Positions 21,556 through 58,918 of a stretch of DNA of 64,000 nucleotides are shown piece after piece. Made by a program: the position numbers and the translations under genes. The first letter of the stretch is position 1. Each line of letters starts with the position of its first letter. The notes under the pieces are model-generated. The model did no database searches. It had not been told where the DNA came from and was given only the letters and a program-made list of their open reading frames with translations. Source of the DNA: Gordonibacter sp. Marseille-P4307 (GTDB taxonomy: Bacteria; Actinomycetota; Coriobacteriia; Coriobacteriales; Eggerthellaceae); contig NZ_UWPD01000001.1 in NCBI RefSeq assembly GCF_900604965.1, forward strand, positions 496,001 through 560,000. Direction: 5' to 3'.

Positions 21556-21690
21556 ATGAAACGCACCTATCAACCGAATACCCGTAAGCGGGCTAAGTGC
21601 CACGGCTTCCGTGCTCGCATGGCTACCAAGGGCGGCCGCCGCGTTCTTGCTGCTCGTCGCGCCAAGGGTCGTAAGCGTCTCACTGTCTAG
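21556..21690 (+). CDS. rpmH: 50S ribosomal protein L34
   Basis: 44 aa, very basic, beginning [20 protein letters not shown] and ending GRKRLTV, the full-length L34 family pattern. GGAAGGA lies 6 bp before the ATG at 21556; an ATG two codons earlier is also in frame but too close to the SD. Confidence 0.97.
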
Positions 21691-46297: not shown

Positions 46298-47893
46298 CTA
46301 AGCGGTGTATTCTTCCAGGTAATCGATCAGCTCTTGGCGCGAATGCAGGTCGGTTTTGGCGTAGATCCGCTTGATATGCGCGTGGGCCGTCCCTTGGCTA
46401 ATGAACAGGGTTTCGGCCACGCGCTTTTGCGTGTATCCCTGGGCGTAGAGCGCCAGCACCTCTATTTCCCGGTCTGATAAAAGGAACTGCCGGCCCATCT
46501 GCCGGGCGCTCTGCTGCATCATCTCTTCGCGGGTCTGGGCCGATTCCGAATTGTTGTCCAAGCCCATCAGCTTGCTGAGCTTCGAGGGGTTCGGCTTGCG
46601 CCGACACGAGCGGCAGTCGCCCTCGCACGAGGGGGAGCTTTCGACCTGCGATTGGTTTTCCACGTGAAGGAACTGGATGAACACGATCTGAGCCGATACG
46701 AGCAGAATAAGGCTCATAACGGAGAGCACCAACCCGCTATCGAGGGCAAGGGATGCCAGGGCGATGATGGACAGACGCATGACCGCGCGGCATCCGATCC
46801 ACACGATCCAGCCGGCACAGGTGTAGTAGTACGGGTCGCGCCATCCCGCGCTCATGAATGCGAGGGAAACGTACCAGGTGAAACCTACCATAAGGGCGTT
46901 GAGCGTCGTGGTGGGAACCGCACCTATGTGCAGTGTGTCGGGAAAGGCCGAGTACAGCACCAATGCGATCGCGGCCAGCAGCTGCATGGCGACGAACATG
47001 CCCACAGTGGTGGTGCGCTCGGATCCGCGCAGCGTGGCTATGATGATGAGGGAGCAGCAGAAGATGACCGCCAGCGGGTAGGCAAGGCGCGTGGCGGGAT
47101 CGAACACGATGGACGCCCCGTTGGGGTACCCGCGCAGAAAGCCGATGACGATGGACAGTGCGCCGATACCCACCGCGGTGGCCATGAGGAACTGGCGCCT
47201 TTGGATCTCGGTTTTCGAGAAGGAGAAGTAATCCGACTCGAATTCTCGGCCCTCGATGTGTTTGGGGATCGTGCGCGTGCGCGCGGAGAGCCTAAGCGGA
47301 TACTGCAGCAAGACGATCGAGGCGGATAGCGCCATCTCAAGGAAATCGGGCAGGATGGACAGCGCGTACAGAAGCGCTTCGCTTAGCGCGAGCGAGGTGA
47401 AGACGTAAACCACCGCCACGACGGTGTTCGTTTCGCGCGCACGACGCAACCAGTAGAAGATGCATAGCGACGCCGAAAGGCTGACCAGGGCCCCGATGGC
47501 CAAGCGCATTCCAGGGAAGGGCTCGCCGAGGGCGAACATGGCGGCCATGGCGAATCCCGAGAGCGACTCGACGGCGATGGACGCGAGCATCAGCCGATTC
47601 ACGAACCGTTTCTTCAGCGGGGTTTTTCGCCGAGTGATGACGGCGAGGAGGACTCCCAGGGCCGCTAGCGCGATAAGCATGCTGCTGTCGGTGAGCGCGC
47701 CGTCATCGGTGCGCGCATATCCCCCGTACGATGCGGTGAGCAATCCGACGCGGGAGATGACCAGGCCCGCTACAAGCGGAATCAGAGCCGAGAAACGCTC
47801 GGTCAGGCCCTTGAGGCCGCCGGGGCCCTCGAGATAGGATCCCTCGTTACCCCGAACCGCTGCTCGCTCGGTGTTCTTTCCGTCTCGCGACAT
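46298..47893 (-). CDS. Membrane-bound LuxR-type transcriptional regulator
   Basis: 531 aa from ATG 47893, preceded by GGGGGAGGATGC; a longer frame adds 23 residues. About 12 hydrophobic segments cover residues 30-410. A juxtamembrane CEGDCRSCRRK (three Cys near 420-430) follows, and a C-terminal LuxR HTH (LSDREIEVLALYAQGYTQKR, then LFISQGTAHAHIKRIYAKT) ends the protein. No receiver or PAS domain is seen, so signal sensing is presumably through the membrane part or the Cys motif. Divergent from the NifU-like gene, with a 17-bp dyad in the shared region. Confidence 0.88.
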   Translation of the reverse strand: MSRDGKNTERAAVRGNEGSYLEGPGGLKGLTERFSALIPLVAGLVISRVGLLTASYGGYARTDDGALTDSSMLIALAALGVLLAVITRRKTPLKKRFVNRLMLASIAVESLSGFAMAAMFALGEPFPGMRLAIGALVSLSASLCIFYWLRRARETNTVVAVVYVFTSLALSEALLYALSILPDFLEMALSASIVLLQYPLRLSARTRTIPKHIEGREFESDYFSFSKTEIQRRQFLMATAVGIGALSIVIGFLRGYPNGASIVFDPATRLAYPLAVIFCCSLIIIATLRGSERTTTVGMFVAMQLLAAIALVLYSAFPDTLHIGAVPTTTLNALMVGFTWYVSLAFMSAGWRDPYYYTCAGWIVWIGCRAVMRLSIIALASLALDSGLVLSVMSLILLVSAQIVFIQFLHVENQSQVESSPSCEGDCRSCRRKPNPSKLSKLMGLDNNSESAQTREEMMQQSARQMGRQFLLSDREIEVLALYAQGYTQKRVAETLFISQGTAHAHIKRIYAKTDLHSRQELIDYLEEYTA

Positions 47894-47940: not shown

Positions 47941-47957
47941 TATCCTCAAAGAGGGTA
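47941..47957. promoter_or_regulatory. Candidate LuxR operator (copy 1)
   Basis: TATCC-N7-GGGTA dyad (one mismatch to TACCC-N7-GGGTA) in the luxR/nifU-like divergent intergenic region. It shares AAAGAGGGTA with the ydhV/ydhY promoter dyad at 52294-52310. Confidence 0.6.
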
Positions 47958-48074
47958 GGCATTCCATAGCCGTTGGACGAGTATGCAATGCGGGTCGGTT
48001 CATCTGGACCGGCCTCCGGTACGTTATTCTAGCGCGTGTTCGGTGAAACAGAGCGATTTAATCGAGGGGGGCGT

Positions 48075-49829
48075 ATGTCGTCTATTGACGGGCGAGCCGA
48101 GGAGTTCGGCGAAGTTGAGGATCCGGTGCGCGATGTGTTCAACGAGCCGCGAGAGCGCGCCGTGATCCGTACGCAGGATGTTTACCAGATGGAAACCGAG
48201 GTGGGCACGATCGGGTACTCCGACACCCTGCTTTCGGTTATAGCCCATTACACCAACAGCGGGCGCCCCAAGGGGTACAACGCCCAGTGCATGGTGGGCA
48301 AGTCGAAGAAGGGCGAGACCGCGCTGCGCCTGTTCGCCGTAATCGACCCTGAAACCGAGACGTTCGTGCGCGCGGGCTTTCAGTCGCGGGGTTGCCTGGC
48401 CGTGACGGCCTGTGCGAGTGCGGTGTGCACCATGATCGAGGGGAAGACCTTTGCCGAGGCCCTTTCCATCAAGCCAGATGATATCGCCGCCGCGCTCGAC
48501 GGGGTTCCCAGCGACAAAACGTATACGCCGCATTTCGCGACCGAGGGCGTGCGGGCTCTGGTGGGGGATTACTGGTTCAGGCGGGGCATGACGCTTGAGG
48601 ATTTCAACGCCCGCAAGCTGTGTGACGACGGATCTTTGTCGTGCATTCTGTGCGAGAACTGCTCGCTTAGGTCGTTTAGGATGGAAAAGCTGGTGGAAGG
48701 GCTTTCTCCGGCTGCGCCCGCTGCGTGCGGGTCCGAAAGCGCACCGGACGATGCCGTCGAGGAAGCTCGGATCGAAACCTCGGCCGCTGCGATGGCGGCG
48801 GGGTCCGAGGCCGCCCCTTTGCTGGCCCCTGTCGCCACAGGAGCCGCGATGTCCCCCGTCGGGGGCGCGTCGCCGTCCGCAGACCCGTCCGCCCTGCCGT
48901 GCGAGGATCCCGAGAAGCGCGCGATCCTCGAGAACAACGCGCTTGCCCGCGCCTTCGACGATGTGCGCAAGCAGTCGGCCGAGGGCCATCTGGTGTGCGC
49001 CACACGCTGGGTTGATCTGGGTATCATACCGCCGCATATGACCGAAGACGAATTCGAGATGACGGTGTACCACTACGTGTGCGACCACGGTTGCGAGGAG
49101 GAGAAGCCGAAAGGGGCGGCTGCGCAGAAAAACCCCCATATCGAAAGCCGCTTCAGAACGGCTACGCGCCCGGTGGGGGTGCCGAGGTTCTTCGACCACG
49201 CGCGCAGGGGCCGCACCGATGCGGACGAGGCCGCCGAATTCGATGAGGGTCTCCCCTCGACCGGTGAGGGCGCGCCGGTTTCCTCCGCGCCCCTCCGCCC
49301 GATCGAGACGAATAACGACGCTGTGTACGACCAGGTGTTCGGTTCGCTGAAGCTTCCCGACGGATACAAGCTTATCGAGCGGGACGGAGAGTGCGTTATG
49401 GTGCCCCTCGAGGACGAAGACCGGTTCATTCCCTTGAAGGTGGAGTGTTCGACCATCGCCGTGCTCGAGGGGGCCTACGAGTACTACCTGTACGATACGC
49501 GGTCGATGACCTCGTCGTTCGCTCACTGGGCATTCCTTGCGGCGGAAGGCGACGACGAGGCTACGTTTGCGGATTGCGTGCGCGAGGAGTCGCGCGTGTA
49601 TCCGCGCCCCATGCCTGCCAGCGGGTTTTCCAACCGCCCCTTCAACAAAACCCCCGAGGAAGTCGAGCAGATGTGGAAGGCGGTAAGCGAATCGGGTCGC
49701 TACCCCGATATCCAGCGCACGGTCGCCTCCAACGGAGATGTGTTCTTCTTCTCGACGAAGCACCTTGCTGCCGACTACGCATCCTCTTTGGCCGAGTGGG
49801 CGGCGGTGGGCCGCTCGATGAGCGTGTAG
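48075..49829 (+). CDS. NifU_N/IscU-like Fe-S scaffold protein fused to Cys-cluster and unknown C-terminal domains
   Basis: 584 aa from ATG 48075 (AGGGGGG nearby). Residues about 50-170 match the NifU N-terminal scaffold: NAQCMVGKSKKGETALRL, the GC-type loop RGCLAVTACASAVCTMIEGKTFAEAL. The usual third-ligand HC is not seen (YTPHFATEG). A second Cys cluster (C183, C190, C193, C196; ILCENC) could hold a [4Fe-4S] or zinc. Residues about 215-300 are Ala/Pro-rich and disordered; 300-584 is an unrecognised domain. Likely delivers or stores clusters for the nearby metalloenzymes (inference). Confidence 0.7.
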   Translation: MSSIDGRAEEFGEVEDPVRDVFNEPRERAVIRTQDVYQMETEVGTIGYSDTLLSVIAHYTNSGRPKGYNAQCMVGKSKKGETALRLFAVIDPETETFVRAGFQSRGCLAVTACASAVCTMIEGKTFAEALSIKPDDIAAALDGVPSDKTYTPHFATEGVRALVGDYWFRRGMTLEDFNARKLCDDGSLSCILCENCSLRSFRMEKLVEGLSPAAPAACGSESAPDDAVEEARIETSAAAMAAGSEAAPLLAPVATGAAMSPVGGASPSADPSALPCEDPEKRAILENNALARAFDDVRKQSAEGHLVCATRWVDLGIIPPHMTEDEFEMTVYHYVCDHGCEEEKPKGAAAQKNPHIESRFRTATRPVGVPRFFDHARRGRTDADEAAEFDEGLPSTGEGAPVSSAPLRPIETNNDAVYDQVFGSLKLPDGYKLIERDGECVMVPLEDEDRFIPLKVECSTIAVLEGAYEYYLYDTRSMTSSFAHWAFLAAEGDDEATFADCVREESRVYPRPMPASGFSNRPFNKTPEEVEQMWKAVSESGRYPDIQRTVASNGDVFFFSTKHLAADYASSLAEWAAVGRSMSV

Positions 49830-49925
49830 AGGCAAGACGTCCGCGCCGTCCTTTCCATCGGCGCTTCGGCCGCGAGGCGCGCCCGCACCTGCCGTCGAAC
49901 CGAGCGCTTCATCCCAGAAACGCAA

Positions 49926-49955
49926 TCGCCCCGCCTTCAACGGAAGGCGGGGCGA
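49926..49955. terminator. Bidirectional terminator, nifU-like/ydhV
   Basis: Perfect 13-bp stem TCGCCCCGCCTTC / GAAGGCGGGGCGA with an AACG loop, lying between convergent genes. T-tracts are modest on both sides. Confidence 0.75.
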
Positions 49956-49990
49956 CCTTGTTAGAGCGACCTTTCGGGCCGTTCTACAAG

Positions 49991-52126
49991 CTAGGGAAGG
50001 AGGCCGAGCTTATCGAGGTCTTCCTTGATGTCGGCCATGCCGTACTCGTCTAGGCACTCGCGGGTCGGGCAGCCGAGCTTTTCGTCCCACCCGAACTTCC
50101 CGTAGACCATGGTGAGGGCCTTCTGGAAGTCGTCGCGGTCCATTTTGTCGGTACCCTCGGTGAACGGCTGCTTATCGGGATCTTTGGTGAACACCCACTC
50201 GGTGATCTTGTCATGATCGTCGCGCAGGTTGTTGTTACCCAGGGTTCCGTCGGACTTGGCCATGCCGCGCACGGTCGCTGCGCGCTGCAGCGTCATGATC
50301 TTGGCGCCAGCCTTGTACAGATCGTCGGTGGTGGTGTCGATGCCGGTCACCGCCGTGAAGAACTTGGCCTCCAGGTCGAGGTCCCCGCGGTAGTCGCGGG
50401 TCTTAGACGGGCTCATGGTCATCGGCCACACCCAGTTGCACAGGGTAAGCGAGTCGTGAAGGACGTCGGTCACGATACTCCACCAGGCGAAGTTCGCCTT
50501 GTGGTCGTTCATGGGCGTGTAGTTCTTGTTCTTGTCGATGGCCTCTTCGCTGCCCCAGACCTCCTTGGCGATCTGCTGCTTCAGTTCGAAGGGAAGGCCG
50601 CATCCTTGGAAGTTGACGGCGGAGTGGATCATGTCGTCGCGGTTGAACATCATGTTGTACACGGCGCCCACCTGGCCGAAGCACTCGATGGAGTGGTGGA
50701 CCGGCCAGCCGCGGTAATTGATGAGCTGGGATGCCACGGTATCGAACCACTTCATGTCGTCCCAGCGCTTGCACCAGACGATGGGGCCGTGGCCGATGTA
50801 GGACATCTCGTTGTCGTTTTGGGCGATGTGCTTCAGCACGTCCACCATGAGGCTGGGATCGTTGGTCTTGAACTTCTCCCAGTCGAACATCTCGTACTCT
50901 TCCTTGGGAAGGACGCGCTCGAACACGCCGCTTGCGTAGCAATGGGCGATGTCGCGGTAGAGCTGCGCGTAGTTGCACCACAGGCCAAGATCGTCAACAG
51001 TCGACCCCATGGCCTGGTTCCAGATGACGAAGTCGTCCCCGTTTTTGGAGACGGTGGTCTTGTCCTTCAAGATCGCCTGCATGTAAAGGAAGGGGAAGTT
51101 CGGCACGCAGGAGTTGCCGGTGGTCTCGAAGCCCCCTGCCTTGGAGCTTTGGGGAACACGCAGGTCGGCGTAGCAGTGGACGGGGCAGCTGTGGCAGCCG
51201 TCCATCTTCACCGTGTACTTCTCGGCCTCGGGGCCGTCGTCTTTGGTGGATTTCATGCAGCGGTAGCCCATGGTGTTCAGCTCGCCGGGTTTGGGCTCTC
51301 CCGTATCGATCGCTCCGCCCTCGGCCAAGGCCCAGGTGAGGCCCTTGCGCGAGGTCCAGCGGGAACCCTTGTCGTAGTACTCGGCCCACTCCTGCTGGGT
51401 CGAGGGAACGACGTGGTTGTTGTTCGAGCCGATGACTTCGCCGATCATGTAGTCGGAAAGCTCGGCAACGGCCTTGGGGTCCTTGACGTAGACCGATCCG
51501 TTGCCCCTGACGACCAGCCCCTTGAGCTTCTTGGAACCCATGACCGCGCCCAGGCCGCCGCCGGCGGAGTGGCTGCGGGAGTTCAGCATGCAGGCGTAGG
51601 GCAGCAGGTTCTCGCCGGCAGGGCCGATGGCCGCCACGCAGCAGTCGACGCCCTCGAGGCGATTCAGCGCTTCGGTGGTTGCGTGGATGCCGGTGCCCCA
51701 GACGAAGGAGGCGTCCTTGATCTGGACGTCGTCGTCTTTGATGCACAGGTACACCGGGGTTTCGGATTTGCCCTCGACGATGATGGCGTCCCAGCCGGCC
51801 AGCTTGATCTTGGCGCCCAGCATTCCGCCCGTATGGGCGTCGACCACGAGATGGTCGGTGGTGAAGGTGGACAGGAAGCTGATGGAGGTGCGGCCCGCCA
51901 AGGGCACGCCGGATGCCGTCAGGGGACCGACGGCATACACGATCTTGGCGTCTTCGGACAGCGGATCGCATCCGACGGGCACCTCGTCGTAAATGATCTT
52001 GTTGGCGATGCCCATACCGCCGACGTATTCCTTGTAAGGATCGGTGGATTCGACGGTGACCTTTCTGGTGCCGAGGTTCACGCGCAGGATCTTGCCGGTC
52101 CATCCATATGACTTCGCGTCAGTCAT
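49991..52126 (-). CDS. ydhV: YdhV-type aldehyde ferredoxin oxidoreductase (AOR family)
   Basis: 711 aa. N-terminal MTDAKSYGWTGKILRVNLG, VGGMGIANKIIYDEVP and AGRTSISFLSTFTT match the AOR N domain. The iron-sulfur Cys motif is CHSCPVHCYA (about 310) with further conserved Cys later; WCNYAQLYRD and CNWVWPMTMSPSKTRDYRGDLDLEAKFF and FTEGTDKMDRDD are shared with E. coli YdhV, remembered from the protein family. Binds tungsto- or molybdopterin and a [4Fe-4S] cluster; the substrate is unknown. Divergent from ydhY across two candidate operators. Confidence 0.88.
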   Translation of the reverse strand: MTDAKSYGWTGKILRVNLGTRKVTVESTDPYKEYVGGMGIANKIIYDEVPVGCDPLSEDAKIVYAVGPLTASGVPLAGRTSISFLSTFTTDHLVVDAHTGGMLGAKIKLAGWDAIIVEGKSETPVYLCIKDDDVQIKDASFVWGTGIHATTEALNRLEGVDCCVAAIGPAGENLLPYACMLNSRSHSAGGGLGAVMGSKKLKGLVVRGNGSVYVKDPKAVAELSDYMIGEVIGSNNNHVVPSTQQEWAEYYDKGSRWTSRKGLTWALAEGGAIDTGEPKPGELNTMGYRCMKSTKDDGPEAEKYTVKMDGCHSCPVHCYADLRVPQSSKAGGFETTGNSCVPNFPFLYMQAILKDKTTVSKNGDDFVIWNQAMGSTVDDLGLWCNYAQLYRDIAHCYASGVFERVLPKEEYEMFDWEKFKTNDPSLMVDVLKHIAQNDNEMSYIGHGPIVWCKRWDDMKWFDTVASQLINYRGWPVHHSIECFGQVGAVYNMMFNRDDMIHSAVNFQGCGLPFELKQQIAKEVWGSEEAIDKNKNYTPMNDHKANFAWWSIVTDVLHDSLTLCNWVWPMTMSPSKTRDYRGDLDLEAKFFTAVTGIDTTTDDLYKAGAKIMTLQRAATVRGMAKSDGTLGNNNLRDDHDKITEWVFTKDPDKQPFTEGTDKMDRDDFQKALTMVYGKFGWDEKLGCPTRECLDEYGMADIKEDLDKLGLLP

Positions 52127-52245
52127 GTTGGTTTCTCCAAATCTCTCTCTTTACGTGTGTTGCGCGGCACGTAGGCAATGCGATTTGGAGCGCGGATTTG
52201 ACTGTTACGTCGCCGTGCATTCTTTCAAACGTCGGGGCGGTCCCG

Positions 52246-52262
52246 TACCCTCTTTAGGGGTA
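52246..52262. promoter_or_regulatory. Candidate LuxR operator (copy 2)
   Basis: TACCC-N7-GGGTA (TACCCTCTTTAGGGGTA), a 17-bp dyad of the kind that a LuxR HTH dimer binds. Confidence 0.65.
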
Positions 52263-52293
52263 ATCGGGAGAAAAAACCTTGTCAGAGAGGGAA

Positions 52294-52310
52294 TACCCGC
52301 AAAGAGGGTA
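52294..52310. promoter_or_regulatory. Candidate LuxR operator (copy 3)
   Basis: TACCC-N7-GGGTA (TACCCGCAAAGAGGGTA), centre-to-centre 48 bp from copy 2. Confidence 0.65.
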
Positions 52311-52465
52311 CGGGTGCTTATAAAGGCGGACGCATAGTAGTCCCATGTTGCGCGGCTGAAAGCATGCGGGGGGCATGCGTCTGCGGTTTGCGAACTGAGA
52401 GGGATCGCGATCGACCGCAGCGCCCATTAAGACAAATCGATACGTGTTGTGAGGGGGATCACAGG

Positions 52466-53197
52466 ATGCCGGATACTAATCTGAGCGCAAGCGCTGCCGA
52501 GGAGCAGACGAGGTCGGCCGACGCTGCAGCCACTACGGCGGAATCTGGATCTACGGGTAAGAAGACGATCACGCGTCGCAACGTTTTGGCCCTGGCGGGA
52601 ACCGGCGTGGCGGGCTTGGTCGCGGGCGGTGTGCTTGCGACATGGGGCGTGACCCAGGAGCGCCTTGCCAGCGGCGAGCTTGATCTGCGCACTACTCCCA
52701 CGAAGATGATCGTGACCGATCGCGCCCGCTGTTCGGGCTGCCAGCGCTGCGAGATGATGTGCACGCTGAGAAACGACGGTCGCGTCTGCCAGCACATCGC
52801 CCGCGTGCGCGTGTGGGACAACTATTATTTCGGGAAGAGCGTCGATACGGGCGAGGGCATGTTCACTGGCAACTGCCAGTTCACCGTCGAGCATTGCAAG
52901 CAGTGCGCCGATCCCATGTGCGCCAAGTACTGCCCTGTGCACGCCATTCACGCCGACAAGGATACCGGGGCCCGCGTGGTGAACGCCGAGGCGTGCATCG
53001 GCTGCGGGATGTGCGGTCAGGCTTGTCCCTGGAACATGCCTCGCGTCGATAGCGACACCGGTGTGTCCACGAAGTGCGTCTCGTGCGGCCGCTGCGCCCA
53101 GCAGTGCCCCAACGGCGCCATCCAGTTCGTTGACTGGCAGGACATCGCTCAGGCCGTCATCGACAAGGGCGTCGTTCGGACGGCCACGCTCGTCTAG
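52466..53197 (+). CDS. ydhY: YdhY-type Tat-exported 4Fe-4S ferredoxin
   Basis: 243 aa from ATG 52466 (SD GAGGGGGAT). Tat signal TITRRNVLALAGTGVAGLVAG follows an N-terminal Ala/Ser tail. The mature part has at least four [4Fe-4S] motifs: CSGCQRCEMMC, CKQCADPMCAKYC, CIGCGMCGQAC and CVSCGRCAQQC. The sequence IVTDRARCSGCQRCEMM and NYYFGKSVD closely match YdhY of E. coli as I recall it. Acts as the electron donor or acceptor of the oxidoreductase. In the same operon as the molybdoenzyme that follows. Confidence 0.9.
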   Translation: MPDTNLSASAAEEQTRSADAAATTAESGSTGKKTITRRNVLALAGTGVAGLVAGGVLATWGVTQERLASGELDLRTTPTKMIVTDRARCSGCQRCEMMCTLRNDGRVCQHIARVRVWDNYYFGKSVDTGEGMFTGNCQFTVEHCKQCADPMCAKYCPVHAIHADKDTGARVVNAEACIGCGMCGQACPWNMPRVDSDTGVSTKCVSCGRCAQQCPNGAIQFVDWQDIAQAVIDKGVVRTATLV

Positions 53198-53250
53198 CGA
53201 CCCATCCGTTCGGGCTAGAGGAAGGGTGCCGCGGGCAAGGGGGTGTGCAG

Positions 53251-53904
53251 ATGGAGGATAGCGAGGTGTTCGCCGTACTGTCCCAATGCTTCGTCGATGG
53301 CGGCGAAGCCGAGTGGGACCGGTTCGTCGCCGAGCAATGGGCCGAGTTCTGCGAGGCCGTTGCGCGCATCGAGTCGTTCGGATTCGGGGCCGAGGGCGCG
53401 CCGCCGAAGGTGTGCGAACCGGCTCTTCCCGCCCCGCCATCGGGTGCCGAGAAGGATTCGTATGCGCGTCGCCGCTACACCGGAGGACTTCCGTCTTCGG
53501 CGATGCCGGTCGAATCGCTGTACGCTTCTTTTGCACAGACGGGATCCGGGGCTGCGCGGTACCGAGCGCTTTGCGCCGACTACATGGCCGACGTCGCGTC
53601 ACGCATGGGGCTTTTCATTCCCGAGCGGTTTGCGGCGTACCCCGACCATCTGTCACTCGAGCTCGATCTGATAGCAGTGCTTCTTCGGGCCGATGCGCTC
53701 GACTCCGCCCGCACCGTTGCGGTCGAACGCCTCGCATGGCTGCCCGATTACCGAGCCGATCTCGAGCGGTTCGACGATGCGGGGTTTTACCGGGCTCTGC
53801 TCGATCGCTTGGGGCGCATACGCCGTCGCCTTGCCGACGAGAAGGAATCCGAACGGTTTCACTATGACGAGAAAACTCTGATAACGAACATACAGGAAGG
53901 ATGA
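53251..53904 (+). CDS. TorD/DmsD-family chaperone
   Basis: 217 aa from ATG 53251 (AAGGGGGT upstream). All-helical. The family core motif is PDHLSLELDLIAVLL with the preceding helix PVESLYASFAQ. TorD-family proteins bind the Tat leader of molybdoenzymes until the cofactor is in place. Located directly upstream of its probable client, with a 1-bp start-stop overlap region. Confidence 0.85.
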   Translation: MEDSEVFAVLSQCFVDGGEAEWDRFVAEQWAEFCEAVARIESFGFGAEGAPPKVCEPALPAPPSGAEKDSYARRRYTGGLPSSAMPVESLYASFAQTGSGAARYRALCADYMADVASRMGLFIPERFAAYPDHLSLELDLIAVLLRADALDSARTVAVERLAWLPDYRADLERFDDAGFYRALLDRLGRIRRRLADEKESERFHYDEKTLITNIQEG

Positions 53905-53909
53905 CAGCA

Positions 53910-56102
53910 ATGTCTGAAAAGGCTTTGACCAGGCGAAGCTTCCTGGCCGGCACTGCGGGGGCGGCAAGCCTTGCTGCAGTGGGCGGTTTTGCGGGTTTCA
54001 GCGCCTGGGAAAACGCGCAGGCTGTCGAAGGCGCCGAGAAGGATCTGCGCCTCGTCCATTCGCTGTGCAACGGCTGTTCGAGCAAATGCGGGTTCACGGC
54101 CTATACAAGCAAGGGCAAGCTTATCAAGCAGATCGGCGATCTGGCGCACAACGACGCCCAGGGCAAGCTCTGCGCGCGCGGTTACGGGTTCGCGAACATC
54201 GCGTTTTCCAAGGATCGCCTTACCGATCCGCTGAAGCGCAACGCCAAGGGCCAGTTCGAGAAGATATCGTGGGATCAGGCGTATGCCGAGATCTCCGATA
54301 AGCTGAAGGGCATCATCGACGAGTCGGGGGCCGCCTCGGTCGCCCTCGTCCACGATCCGCGTCCTTCGGGAAGCTATTACGGTCCTCGCTTCATGAACGC
54401 GCTGGGTTCGGCCAACATCTACACGCACGGCGCCGCATGCTACGCTTCCCGCAAGGGCGGGTTCAAGCAGGTTCTGGGTTACGGCGATTGGACGAGCGAC
54501 GTCGAGAACTCGAAGATGACCATGTTCATCGGCCGCAGCTATGCCGACGGCATCAAGCCCTCCCAGCTCATGAGCCTTCAGCGCGCGCACGACAGGGGAT
54601 CGAAGATCGTTTTGGTCGATCCTCGCTGCAGCAATACCCGACCTTTTGCAACCGAGTGGGTGCCCATCAAGCCCGGAACCGATATGGCGCTTGTTCTGGC
54701 TCTGTCGTGCGAACTGGTGCGCACGGGCAACTACGACAAGGAATACGTGAAGGCCAACGTCGAGGGCTTCGACCAATGGTGGGACTACACCCGCACCTGC
54801 ACGCCCGAGTGGGCCGAAGAGATCACCGGCGTCCCCGCCGACACGATCTGCCGTTTGGCCGCCGATTTCGCGGCAGCTGCTCCGGCTGCGTCTATCGAGG
54901 CCAGTTGGCGCGCTGCGTTCGGATGCATGTACACCAACTCCGGTGAAACCGCTCGCACCGTGGCCATCTTCAACACGCTTCTCGGCTGCTGGAACCAGAA
55001 GGGCGGCGCCATCTTCACGTCCAAGGCCAAACTGGGAAACATGGACAAGACCAAGTTCAAGCCTACTCCCAAGATCGAAGCGAAGCCCTACGGCAACTCC
55101 GATCTGAAGCTGGGAACCGAGGCGAACTGCCTCATGGCCGCCCAGGGAGCGCGAAAGGGCGATCTTAAGGCCATGTTCTTCTACAACTCGAACATGGTGG
55201 CCGGCTATCAGAACCCGAAGTACCTGGGAGAGTGTCTGGACAACCTCGAGCTGTGCGTCGTCATCGACGTTCAGATGAGCGAGACCGCCCAGCATGCCCA
55301 TTACATCCTGCCCGAGTGTAGCTATCTAGAGCGTGCCGAGGTTCCGCAGCTCAACGGCGGCATGATCCCGTCAGTCACGTTCCGCGACCAGGTGCTCGAC
55401 GTGATCCACCCGAATACGCGCTCGTGCGACAAGATATACACCGAGCTGGCCGAGGCGTGCGGCGTGGGCGAGTACTTCCAGTTCACGCTGGAAGAGCTGT
55501 CCGAGGCCCAAATGAAGAGCATCGGCCACAGCATGGACGAGCTTCGTCGCGTGGGCACCATCAACCTGCACGACAAGGCGTTCAAGTACGGTACCGCCCC
55601 GAAGTTCTCCACTGATACCGGCAAGATCAAGTTCTGCAACGACGCGGTGACAGAGTACGGCTACAGCGCCGCCCCCCATTGGGAAGCGCCCAGCGTTTCG
55701 CCGAATACCGACGAGTATCGCCTGATTGCGGGTAAGCAGGCGATCCAGAGCCACAACCAGACGGTCAACGTCGGCACCCTGATGGATATTTCCAAGGAAT
55801 ACGGCCTCGAGCGCCTGTGGATCAATCCTGCGGTAGCAGACAAGATCGGCGTCAAGGACGGCGACACGGTGGAGATGTCCAACGCGCTTCACACCGGCAG
55901 GATCAAGGTGAAGGTTACCGAGCGCATGAGTCCCTGGGCCGTCTACATGCCCAGCCATTACGGCTGTTCGGTGAAAGAGCAGACCAATGCCTACAGCTTC
56001 GGTTTGCGCGCGATGGACTTCACCGAGTTTCGCATCGAACCCGGTTACGGCGGATCGTGTAACCACGAGAACTCCGTCAAACTTAAGAAGGTGAATGCAT
56101 AA
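53910..56102 (+). CDS. PhsA/PsrA-like molybdopterin oxidoreductase, catalytic subunit
   Basis: 730 aa from ATG 53910 (GGAAGG). Tat signal ALTRRSFLAGTAGAASLAAVGG. A [4Fe-4S] site CNGCSSKCGF, later GKLCARG, heads the bis-MGD enzyme. The metal-ligand region THGAACYASRKGGF (Cys) fits the thiosulfate/polysulfide reductase class. The C-terminal domain ends with HNQTVNVGTL and NHENSVKLKKVNA. It overlaps the Fe-S subunit start by 1 bp. The substrate may be thiosulfate, polysulfide or another S/N-oxide; this is not decided by sequence. Confidence 0.9.
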   Translation: MSEKALTRRSFLAGTAGAASLAAVGGFAGFSAWENAQAVEGAEKDLRLVHSLCNGCSSKCGFTAYTSKGKLIKQIGDLAHNDAQGKLCARGYGFANIAFSKDRLTDPLKRNAKGQFEKISWDQAYAEISDKLKGIIDESGAASVALVHDPRPSGSYYGPRFMNALGSANIYTHGAACYASRKGGFKQVLGYGDWTSDVENSKMTMFIGRSYADGIKPSQLMSLQRAHDRGSKIVLVDPRCSNTRPFATEWVPIKPGTDMALVLALSCELVRTGNYDKEYVKANVEGFDQWWDYTRTCTPEWAEEITGVPADTICRLAADFAAAAPAASIEASWRAAFGCMYTNSGETARTVAIFNTLLGCWNQKGGAIFTSKAKLGNMDKTKFKPTPKIEAKPYGNSDLKLGTEANCLMAAQGARKGDLKAMFFYNSNMVAGYQNPKYLGECLDNLELCVVIDVQMSETAQHAHYILPECSYLERAEVPQLNGGMIPSVTFRDQVLDVIHPNTRSCDKIYTELAEACGVGEYFQFTLEELSEAQMKSIGHSMDELRRVGTINLHDKAFKYGTAPKFSTDTGKIKFCNDAVTEYGYSAAPHWEAPSVSPNTDEYRLIAGKQAIQSHNQTVNVGTLMDISKEYGLERLWINPAVADKIGVKDGDTVEMSNALHTGRIKVKVTERMSPWAVYMPSHYGCSVKEQTNAYSFGLRAMDFTEFRIEPGYGGSCNHENSVKLKKVNA

Positions 56103-56644
56103 TGGCCCGTTACGGAATGCTTATCGATACGAGCAAATGCGTCGGGTGCTTCACCTGCCGTACCGCTTGTCAGCGCCAGAACGGCCTGTTGGATGACGAG
56201 TCGTTCATTCGCTTCGAGACTCGCGAGGTGGGGAAGTTCCCGAACGTGACGTTTGAGACGGTGCCCCTGCAGTGCATGCACTGCGACGATGCTCCCTGCG
56301 CAGCGGTGTGCCCTACGGGTGCGGCTCGCATGGGAACCGACGGTATCGTTCAGGTTGACCAGGGGCGCTGCATCGGTTGCCTGTATTGCATGGCGGCATG
56401 CCCCTACCAGGTGCGCGTGCGCAACAGCGAGACGGGCTCGGTTGACAAATGCCGTTTCTGCACGGTTTCCGCCGCTGTGGACGGTACTGCTATGTGCACG
56501 TGTGTGGAGGCTTGCCCCACTGGCGTGCGCGTCTTCGGCGATTTGGACGATCCCGATTCCGAGATTTCCAAGCTGCTGGCTGAAACCAAGGCTCAGCCCA
56601 TCGCCGAGGGCCTGTCCGAGCCCAAAGTCTACTACGTGAGGTGA
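56102..56644 (+). CDS. 4Fe-4S electron-transfer subunit (PsrB/DmsB-like)
   Basis: 180 aa with four cysteine motifs: CVGCFTCRTAC, CMHCDDAPCAAVC, CIGCLYCMAAC and CRFC/CTCVEAC. It belongs to the NrfC/PsrB family of four-cluster subunits that relay electrons between the membrane subunit and the Mo enzyme. It starts on the last base of the catalytic gene (ATG over TAA-type junction). Confidence 0.93.
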   Translation: MARYGMLIDTSKCVGCFTCRTACQRQNGLLDDESFIRFETREVGKFPNVTFETVPLQCMHCDDAPCAAVCPTGAARMGTDGIVQVDQGRCIGCLYCMAACPYQVRVRNSETGSVDKCRFCTVSAAVDGTAMCTCVEACPTGVRVFGDLDDPDSEISKLLAETKAQPIAEGLSEPKVYYVR

Positions 56645-56649
56645 TGAGC

Positions 56650-57543
56650 ATGGAATTCGAACCTATTTGGGAGCTTCCCATTGCGCTGTACCTGTTCTTG
56701 GCCGGTTTGGGCGGCGGCGCGTTCATCACATCGGTGTTCATGAACTGGAAGAACCCCGACACTAAAAAGATCCAGCGCTTCGCTCACCTGGCCGCCCTCG
56801 TGTTCGTGGGCGTCGGCTTGGTGTTGCTGATGACCGATGCGAAGGCCGGCTTGTTCCATCCGTGGCGGTTCATCTTGCTGCTGGTGAACTTCGGCTCCGT
56901 CATGACCTGGGGCGTGGTGTTCCTCGCCGGCTTCATGGCGGTCGATCTGGCTGTAGTGGTTCTGGAGTGGACCAAGCGGGTGGTGCCGCGCTGGCTCGAG
57001 ATCGCGGGCTGTCTGTTCGCGGTGTGCGTGGGCATCTACACCGGCGCCTTGCTGGGCGTGCCCCATACGTTCCCGCTGTGGAACAGCGCGGTTCTTCCGC
57101 CCCTGTTCCTGGTCTCCGCCGTTTCGACGGGCGCTGCGGCGGTTCTGCTGTACGGCGTGCTAGCCGTACCCGAGGAATTCGAGCGCACCGGTTGGGTGAA
57201 GAAAGCTCACTACTTCTTGCCGATCGTCGAGATCGTGTTGGTCGCAGCGCTGCTTTTCATCACCTTCTACAACGGCGAGGCGGGTCGGAACTCGGCTATG
57301 TCGCTTCTGTGCGGTCGGTTCGCCGTGGTGTTCTGGCTGGGCTTTGTGCTTATCGGTCTTTTGGGTCCGATCGCGATCGAGACGGCGATGCTGTTCGTTG
57401 CGAAGCCCGAGTTCGAAGAGACTCCGACGGGCCGATACCTGCTTGCGGGCGGCAGCGTCGGTGTTCTTATCGGAGGGTTTCTGCTGCGTTACCTGGTGGT
57501 TATGGCGGCGCTTCCGGTCACGTTGGTCGTTCCGTTTATCTAG
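56650..57543 (+). CDS. NrfD/PsrC-like quinol membrane subunit
   Basis: 297 aa from ATG 56650 (GAGGTGA). About eight transmembrane helices; conserved N-terminal ELPIALYLFLAGLGGGAF and a middle GIYTGALLGVPHTFPLWNS are family features. Carries quinone oxidation/reduction for the complex. A G+C-rich terminator follows. Confidence 0.92.
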   Translation: MEFEPIWELPIALYLFLAGLGGGAFITSVFMNWKNPDTKKIQRFAHLAALVFVGVGLVLLMTDAKAGLFHPWRFILLLVNFGSVMTWGVVFLAGFMAVDLAVVVLEWTKRVVPRWLEIAGCLFAVCVGIYTGALLGVPHTFPLWNSAVLPPLFLVSAVSTGAAAVLLYGVLAVPEEFERTGWVKKAHYFLPIVEIVLVAALLFITFYNGEAGRNSAMSLLCGRFAVVFWLGFVLIGLLGPIAIETAMLFVAKPEFEETPTGRYLLAGGSVGVLIGGFLLRYLVVMAALPVTLVVPFI

Positions 57544-57646: not shown

Positions 57647-58918
57647 ATGGTCGAAATGAAAAGCCCGGCCGTCGCGTTCGTCGGCCGCCATAACTCGGGG
57701 AAAACAACCCTGATCGTCAAGCTTATCGAAGAGCTGGTTGCTCGCGGCGTCGATGTGGGCAGCGTGAAGCACCACAGTCATGCGGGCTTCGATATCGATA
57801 TCCCCGGCAAGGATTCGTACCGACATCGCCATGCGGGGGCTTCGGAGACGGTGATTGTCGCTCCCGGGCAGATGGCGTGCGTAAAAACGATCGAGGGGGA
57901 TCTCGATTGCTCCCGCATCGTGGCCAGTATGCCGGGGCACGACCTGGTTATCGTGGAGGGATACCGTAAAAGCGGTCTTCCCACTATCGAGATCATGAGA
58001 CAGGGCAACCCGGCCGATGTGAAGGCGGCTCGGGTCTTTGCGCAGGGCGCGCGCGAGGGATGGTCGCTCGATTCCGATTTCACGCAGATCGGGCGCCGGG
58101 TTTCGGATGCCGATCCCGGTCGAATCGATTATCTGGATGTTTCCGAGAAGCTGCCCGGATCGGCCACGGTGGCTATCGTAAGCGATATCCCGTGTGCACT
58201 CGAAGCCGCGCGTTTATACGGGATACCGTCGTTCGGGCTGGAATCCGTATCCGAGATCGCCGACTTTCTCGAACGGAGCTACGCCCGGCCGAAGGTGACG
58301 GTGGTGATCCAGGCGGGCGGGGAGAGCCGCCGTATGGGCACAAGCAAGGCCACGGTTTCCTTCGGGGGTCGTCCTTTGATATGCCGCCTGATAGACCGCG
58401 TCTCTTCGGTTGCCGACGAATTGGTGATCACCACCAACGAACCCGACAACCTCTCGTTTCTGCTTGAGGACTATCCGAAGCTGGCCATTCGGCTCGAGCG
58501 CGACGTGTGCGCCGCTCGCGGTGCGCTTCCCGGACTCTACACCGCCCTCGAGGTTGCATCCCATCCCTATGTAGCGGTGGTGGCCTGCGATATGATCTTT
58601 GCTTCGCCCCGTTTGATCGCAGCCGAGGTCGAGGCGCTCACGCGGTCGGGGGCCGATGCGGTGGTGCCCGTGAACAAGCACGGTTACGAGCCGTTCCATG
58701 CGCTTTACCGGAAAAGCGCCTGTCTGCCGGTGGTGAGGGAGGGCGTCGAAGCGGGCCAGCGCGCCGCCCAGTACGTTATGAGGCACGTGAACGTGCGCGA
58801 ATTCCCGCAAAGCGAGGTTCTGGCGGCCGAGCCCATGGGAGGCTGTTTCGTGAACGCGAACACGCCCGAAGAGCTGGCGTCGTTTGAAAGCTGGTATTTG
58901 GATGCCCAGCATCGATGA
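57647..58918 (+). CDS. MobB-MobA fusion (molybdenum cofactor guanylylation)
   Basis: 423 aa, ATG at 57647 with GGGGGGAGG. Residues 1-225 are MobB (P-loop GRHNSGKTTLIVKLIEEL, then KHHSHAGFDID). Residues about 235-423 are a MobA nucleotidyltransferase (QAGGESRRMGTSKA, ACDMIFASP, NKHGYEPFHALY). The protein makes MGD cofactor. The fusion order is MobB then MobA. It serves the neighbouring Mo/W enzymes. Confidence 0.92.
   Translation: MVEMKSPAVAFVGRHNSGKTTLIVKLIEELVARGVDVGSVKHHSHAGFDIDIPGKDSYRHRHAGASETVIVAPGQMACVKTIEGDLDCSRIVASMPGHDLVIVEGYRKSGLPTIEIMRQGNPADVKAARVFAQGAREGWSLDSDFTQIGRRVSDADPGRIDYLDVSEKLPGSATVAIVSDIPCALEAARLYGIPSFGLESVSEIADFLERSYARPKVTVVIQAGGESRRMGTSKATVSFGGRPLICRLIDRVSSVADELVITTNEPDNLSFLLEDYPKLAIRLERDVCAARGALPGLYTALEVASHPYVAVVACDMIFASPRLIAAEVEALTRSGADAVVPVNKHGYEPFHALYRKSACLPVVREGVEAGQRAAQYVMRHVNVREFPQSEVLAAEPMGGCFVNANTPEELASFESWYLDAQHR

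Follow-up and report, generated by a model that had tools for sequence, protein, structure and literature searches.

Within the window, which is the whole 64 000-bp stretch of DNA analysed here, a gene for a membrane regulator of the LuxR type lies next to genes for a tungsten/molybdenum oxidoreductase. The luxR gene (46298–47893, minus strand) encodes a 531-aa protein with a C-terminal GerE/NarL-type helix-turn-helix (HTH; PF00196, residues 472–525, 8.4e-15), and the AlphaFold2 model (pLDDT 84) has 12 transmembrane (TM) helices ahead of this domain. A fold search of the PDB showed that the membrane part resembles MFS transporters (ferroportin, OxlT and VMAT2; TM-scores of 0.4–0.5 by query length), and the HTH is nearest in sequence to the NarL, VraR, LiaR and DosR types. 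The number of helices, the C-terminal HTH and the position beside aor and mopB, in a conserved neighbourhood of which luxR is the sole regulator, are those of the LuxR family with 10–12 TM helices, whose genes lie close to molybdenum or flavin enzymes. A CxxxCxxC sequence in the linker was considered as a metal site and rejected, because it is not conserved.

Upstream of luxR and facing away from it is a nifU-like gene (48075–49829, plus strand), a fusion of a NifU_N domain (PF01592, 3.6e-14) with a second domain. It is followed by aor (49991–52126, minus strand), a ydhV-like (WorL) gene for the large subunit of a class V-type tungsten/molybdenum oxidoreductase (AFOR domains PF02730/PF01314; 65 related loci). 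Facing away from aor on the plus strand are genes for a ydhY-like Fe-S subunit (WorS; 52466–53197; Fer4 families, and a twin-arginine-like motif, TRRNVLALAG, read by eye), a NarJ/TorD-like chaperone (53245–53904; PF02613), a molybdopterin oxidoreductase partner subunit (MopB; 53901–56102; PF00384/PF01568/PF04879), a 4Fe-4S ferredoxin-like subunit (56102–56644; PF13247), an NrfD-like membrane anchor (56641–57543; PF03916) and a MobB-MobA fusion for cofactor nucleotide attachment (57647–58918; PF03205/PF12804). The arrangement nrfD-fdx-mopB-(narJ)-ydhY against aor, and nifU against luxR, is stable among related loci. By its YdhV/YdhY pair and membrane partners, as predicted from the genes, the enzyme corresponds to a class V WOR; the AFOR domains, a Fer4 protein with a TRR motif (by eye) and NrfD are all present. 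Class V WORs (clade 41) have been reported in Eggerthella, Gordonibacter, Slackia and Collinsella, and their activity, substrate and role are not known (PMC13328260). In Berryella the nifU-like gene is a single fusion, and in L037 (12277–13874), L030 (8969–10957) and L041 (14119–15750) two separate genes stand in its place; the split genes of Eggerthella and its relatives encode a NifU_N protein plus a partner of unassigned function. Fusion in one genus and separation in others suggest that the two parts act together, and the presence of this gene in the regulon proposed below suggests a role in maturation.

The initial annotation had placed three TACCC-N7-GGGTA dyads in the divergent intergenic regions of this locus, and they are located exactly there: at 47941–47957 between luxR and nifU (TATCCTCAAAGAGGGTA, with a single mismatch), and at 52246–52262 (TACCCTCTTTAGGGGTA on the forward strand, TACCCCTAAAGAGGGTA on the minus strand) and 52294–52310 (TACCCGCAAAGAGGGTA, plus strand) between aor and ydhY. 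The first of them would lie inside the longest luxR open reading frame, which begins at ATG 47962. The most likely start, however, is ATG 47893, with GGGGGAGG just upstream, and with this start all three dyads are intergenic. The 14-bp inverted arm attributed to the two ydh copies is likewise exact (CCCGTACCCTCTTT at 52242–52255, AAAGAGGGTACGGG at 52302–52315), and a longer core, TACCCTCTTT, is common to all three dyads. A fourth one-mismatch dyad at 21579–21595 (TACCCGTAAGCGGGCTA), with a position weight matrix (PWM) score at background level (3.6), is probably due to chance.

The bare pattern occurs exactly only twice in the 1.8-Mb genome, both times at this locus, and with up to one mismatch 21 times, compared with 91 for a reversed control pattern. 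It is therefore not enriched genome-wide and is weak evidence by itself, so that random frequency, which the initial annotation had named as a possible objection, does apply to the bare pattern. It does not apply to the extended element TAYCCTC-AAA-GAGGGKA followed by a –10 box, which is conserved across Eggerthellaceae and nearly confined to two intergenic regions, aor-ydhY and luxR-nifU. Sixty-five AOR loci with their flanks were collected by protein similarity, independently of the motif. With a PWM built from the same sites (its training and test data overlap), sites scoring above the 99% level of shuffled sequences were found in 44 of 51 aor-ydhY regions and in 59 of 69 luxR-nifU regions, where they are orthologous to the nifU operator of the window; duplicate loci are counted among the luxR-nifU regions. 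In most of the 44 site-bearing aor-ydhY regions the aor operator is some 120–140 bp upstream of the aor start. The spacer is specific as well: 1.45 Mb of related loci contain 27 dyads with N7, against zero to two for each spacer of 3–6 and 8–13, the window sites and a few other places being counted in more than one locus.

The search of Eggerthellaceae genomes proposed in the initial annotation gave the same picture. Among 138 genomes of the family, all 36 exact matches to TACCCTCTTTNNGGRTA and 52 of the 66 one-mismatch matches are found no more than 15 kb from luxR or aor, nearly all of them within 1 kb, and most of the remote one-mismatch matches, when inspected, were inside open reading frames. 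A stricter form, TAYCCTCAAAGAGGGKA, was matched exactly 27 times when 397 genomes from the order were searched, each time at a LuxR/AOR locus (control, 0). Several LuxR-bearing loci (L052, L078 and L080) have no clear site. The genome that contains the window is Berryella-like, its AOR being 85% identical to that of B. wangjianweii, and this congener (L016) has a degenerate luxR-nifU site with a score of 8.9. When the own genome was searched for further regulon members with a composite promoter pattern, only nifU and aor were recovered at up to one mismatch, and at two mismatches the matches were at the control level.

The element co-occurs with the regulator. Six Eggerthellaceae and four Collinsella genomes have kept aor and have no LuxR match at E 1e-15 or 1e-20, and their aor promoter regions have no site. 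In a tree-based comparison the site was present in 0 of 9 LuxR-less rows and 59 of 68 others (Fisher 3e-7, a value that overstates the evidence because the tree implies only about two independent losses of LuxR); among the nine rows of the second group that have no site, several have a technical explanation, namely a tandem second aor copy (L034), a truncated aor (L057) and a misplaced boundary (L041). Conversely, in Gordonibacter pamelaeae luxR is around 18 kb from aor and each has a site, and in two Collinsella metagenome-assembled genomes (L142 and L146) luxR is on a different contig from aor, with its own site. No compensating consensus –35/–10 elements were found in the LuxR-less promoters, nor any regulator gene common to the surroundings of these loci. 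In the aor-ydhY intergenic region of one LuxR-less Eggerthellaceae clade (L044, L171, L177, L178 and L180) there are GTAAC/GTTAC dyads instead, which may be bound by a regulator that has replaced LuxR.

These distributions bear on the strongest alternative, that another dimeric regulator binds the dyad, for example a repressor of the CsoR/CstR type or a regulator responding to metal or redox state, luxR being a mere neighbour. The half-sites resemble those of CsoR-family operators, and one CsoR-family protein is encoded in the genome. However, operators of that family have the form TACCC-N5/6-GGGTA, whereas the window dyads have an N7 spacer; the csoR-type gene has an upstream N5 dyad of its own (CATACCCTCTGGGGGTATG) with a PWM score of –2.2; the sites are gone from LuxR-less genomes and stay with luxR when aor is distant; and the class II position described below argues against a simple repressor. 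We consider this explanation unlikely. The dyad CATACCCTCTGGGGGTATG itself (1354–1372 of L185, G000:C2), upstream of the CsoR-type gene and then a gene for an apparent copper-binding protein, is likely to be a CsoR operator.

Assignment of the dyad to LuxR is also consistent with variation in the regulator. In four loci (L063, L072, L075 and L213, the last being the second locus of G054) the recognition helix reads IRH or IRN, not IKR, and the half-sites of the aor promoter are changed, for example to TGACCCCAAAGAGAGGA and TCGCCTCAAACGGGCGA, with the –10 box still at +30. A second, inverted operator copy is present far beyond shuffled expectation in two of the three altered-helix loci tested. 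Since the set is essentially one clade, it is only suggestive that the recognition helix and the operator change together. These loci form a second AOR clade, with altered operators in an unchanged promoter architecture, and the two operators of L075 are exact reverse complements 37 bp apart. In L205 (Rubneribacter, around position 2025) a dyad, TACCCTGAAAAAGGGTA, lies around 0.6 kb from a paralogous 12-TM LuxR gene and is possibly a related operator for another target.

In the aor, ydhY and nifU promoter classes alike, the element has a constant orientation, TAYCCTC-AAA-GAGGGKA pointing towards the gene; at nifU the proximal half is GAGGGTA. A CATACT/CATAAT-like hexamer begins 30 bases from the operator centre. 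After removal of near-duplicates this –10 hexamer was found at +30 in 20 of 32 aor, 17 of 27 ydhY and 18 of 34 nifU promoters, where about 0.5 is expected per offset. The boxes predicted in the window are AAGAAT for aor (52219–52224, minus strand; +30, from the offset test and an alignment of 43 promoters), GAGTAT for nifU (47979–47984, plus strand; +30, at a position conserved in orthologues) and CATAGT for ydhY (52333–52338, plus strand; +31), the last two being imperfect. No –35 is recognizable at the operator position, where matches are mostly two or three of six. All –10 boxes are predictions; with them at +30, the operator centre falls at about –41.5/–42, over the –35 region, in all three promoter classes, and this is a predicted class II-type activator geometry.

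The two operators between aor and ydhY also have a preferred spacing. Their centres are 48 bp apart in the window and 37, 47–48, 58–59, 80–83 or 91–92 bp apart among related loci, a period of around 11 bp (simulation p < 0.005, with coarse clusters and hand-chosen representatives), and a second site at a phased spacing is present in 34 related loci. By this spacing the aor and ydhY operators are helically phased. Four loci from Collinsella and relatives (L056, L069, L071 and L079) have a tandem, not divergent, arrangement: a strong site 54–57 bp upstream of a degenerate second site, with the –10 at +30 of the latter.

The promoter geometry also bears on the proposal that LuxR binds the dyad mainly as a repressor, its own gene included. 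The window site is 48–64 bp upstream of the luxR start, so that a bound protein could cover the luxR promoter, and the level of FLAG-DadR is altered upon induction, which hints at autoregulation in the family (PMC9734109). Against this, in all three target classes the operator takes the place of the –35 and its distance to the –10 is constant, whereas luxR begins anywhere between 52 and >400 bp from the site and has no –10 on its side, and the known members of the 12-TM LuxR family are activators. We regard repression as very improbable. The –10 element being only on the nifU side, we assign the site to nifU, and the control of luxR by its own product put forward in the initial annotation is not upheld. 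That the dyads arose by chance or are a non-regulatory repeat would suit the frequency of the bare 10-base pattern in the own genome, but family-wide conservation and the tests of position, orientation and spacing refute it almost completely.

We conclude, with a probability of about 0.84, that the linked 12-TM LuxR-type regulator, a one-component activator, uses the dyad as its operator to control the aor, ydhY and nifU units. The central proposal of the initial annotation, one putative operator linking the membrane LuxR to these promoters, thus gains support from family-wide conservation, co-occurrence with LuxR and the GerE-type, dimer-site appearance of the element. In the mechanism that we envisage from these sequence comparisons, the MFS-fold membrane domain would sense a ligand; by analogy with DadR, HcdR and CadR, this is probably what the oxidoreductase uses as its substrate. 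A dimer of the NarL-type HTH domains, for which the inverted half-sites of a GerE-type operator are present, would then bind TAYCCTC-AAA-GAGGGKA near –41.5/–42 in place of a –35, and bound LuxR would recruit RNA polymerase in a class II-type manner. The units switched on would be aor, the nifU-like gene and ydhY-(narJ)-mopB-fdx-nrfD-mobBA; aor and ydhY, with their divergent promoters, would be served by two phased operators facing opposite ways. A wider reading, to which we give somewhat less than even odds, is that a first operator/promoter code has been defined for a large family of Coriobacteriia, the MFS-fold membrane LuxR receptors. In this reading a membrane-retained, transporter-like receptor would activate class II promoters via a pair of helically phased operators that lie between promoters facing away from each other, and which operator is recognized would depend on whether the recognition helix has Lys or Arg.

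Through the proposed operator one could approach the function of this tungsten/molybdenum enzyme, which is encoded by Coriobacteriia from the gut and other host habitats. The known 12-TM LuxRs are responsive to the substrates of their target enzymes, and a reporter screen built on the operator and promoter could be used to seek the substrate of class V WORs. The proposal also concerns a regulator family for which our search of the open-access literature found no binding motif or published operator; a single E. lenta strain has 83 transmembrane members of this family, and 74 of these have 10–12 TM helices.

The system is a fresh member of an already known regulator family. The 10–12-TM LuxRs of Coriobacteriia (DadR, HcdR and CadR) are substrate-specific activators of adjacent enzyme genes (PMC9734109), and the window LuxR shares with them 12 N-terminal TM helices, a C-terminal PF00196 HTH and a gene beside a molybdo/tungstoenzyme operon. 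It differs in that its target is of the AOR/WOR type, not a catechol dehydroxylase, and in that the system is conserved across many genera; an operator is proposed here, whereas the main text of PMC9734109 gives no operator motif for DadR, HcdR or CadR. The enzyme resembles class V WOR and the E. coli ydh operon in its YdhV-YdhY pair and membrane-associated, multi-subunit organization, but in the coriobacterial version the partners include MopB and NrfD, and there is a regulator of the LuxR type (PMC13328260, the text of which contains neither 'regulat' nor 'LuxR'). The window dyad is similar to NarL-type operators (PMC7419079) in its inverted 7-base half-sites with a TACYY-like start and in the GerE HTH of its putative regulator, and its promoters, by their predicted geometry, resemble NarL-activated ones with the activator site near –41/–45. 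In contrast to the 7-2-7 arrangement of NarL sites, it has a 7-3-7 arrangement (17 bp), with a spacer of three bases instead of two and an A-tract of fixed polarity at its centre, and unlike NarL, the window LuxR has neither a receiver domain nor a kinase.
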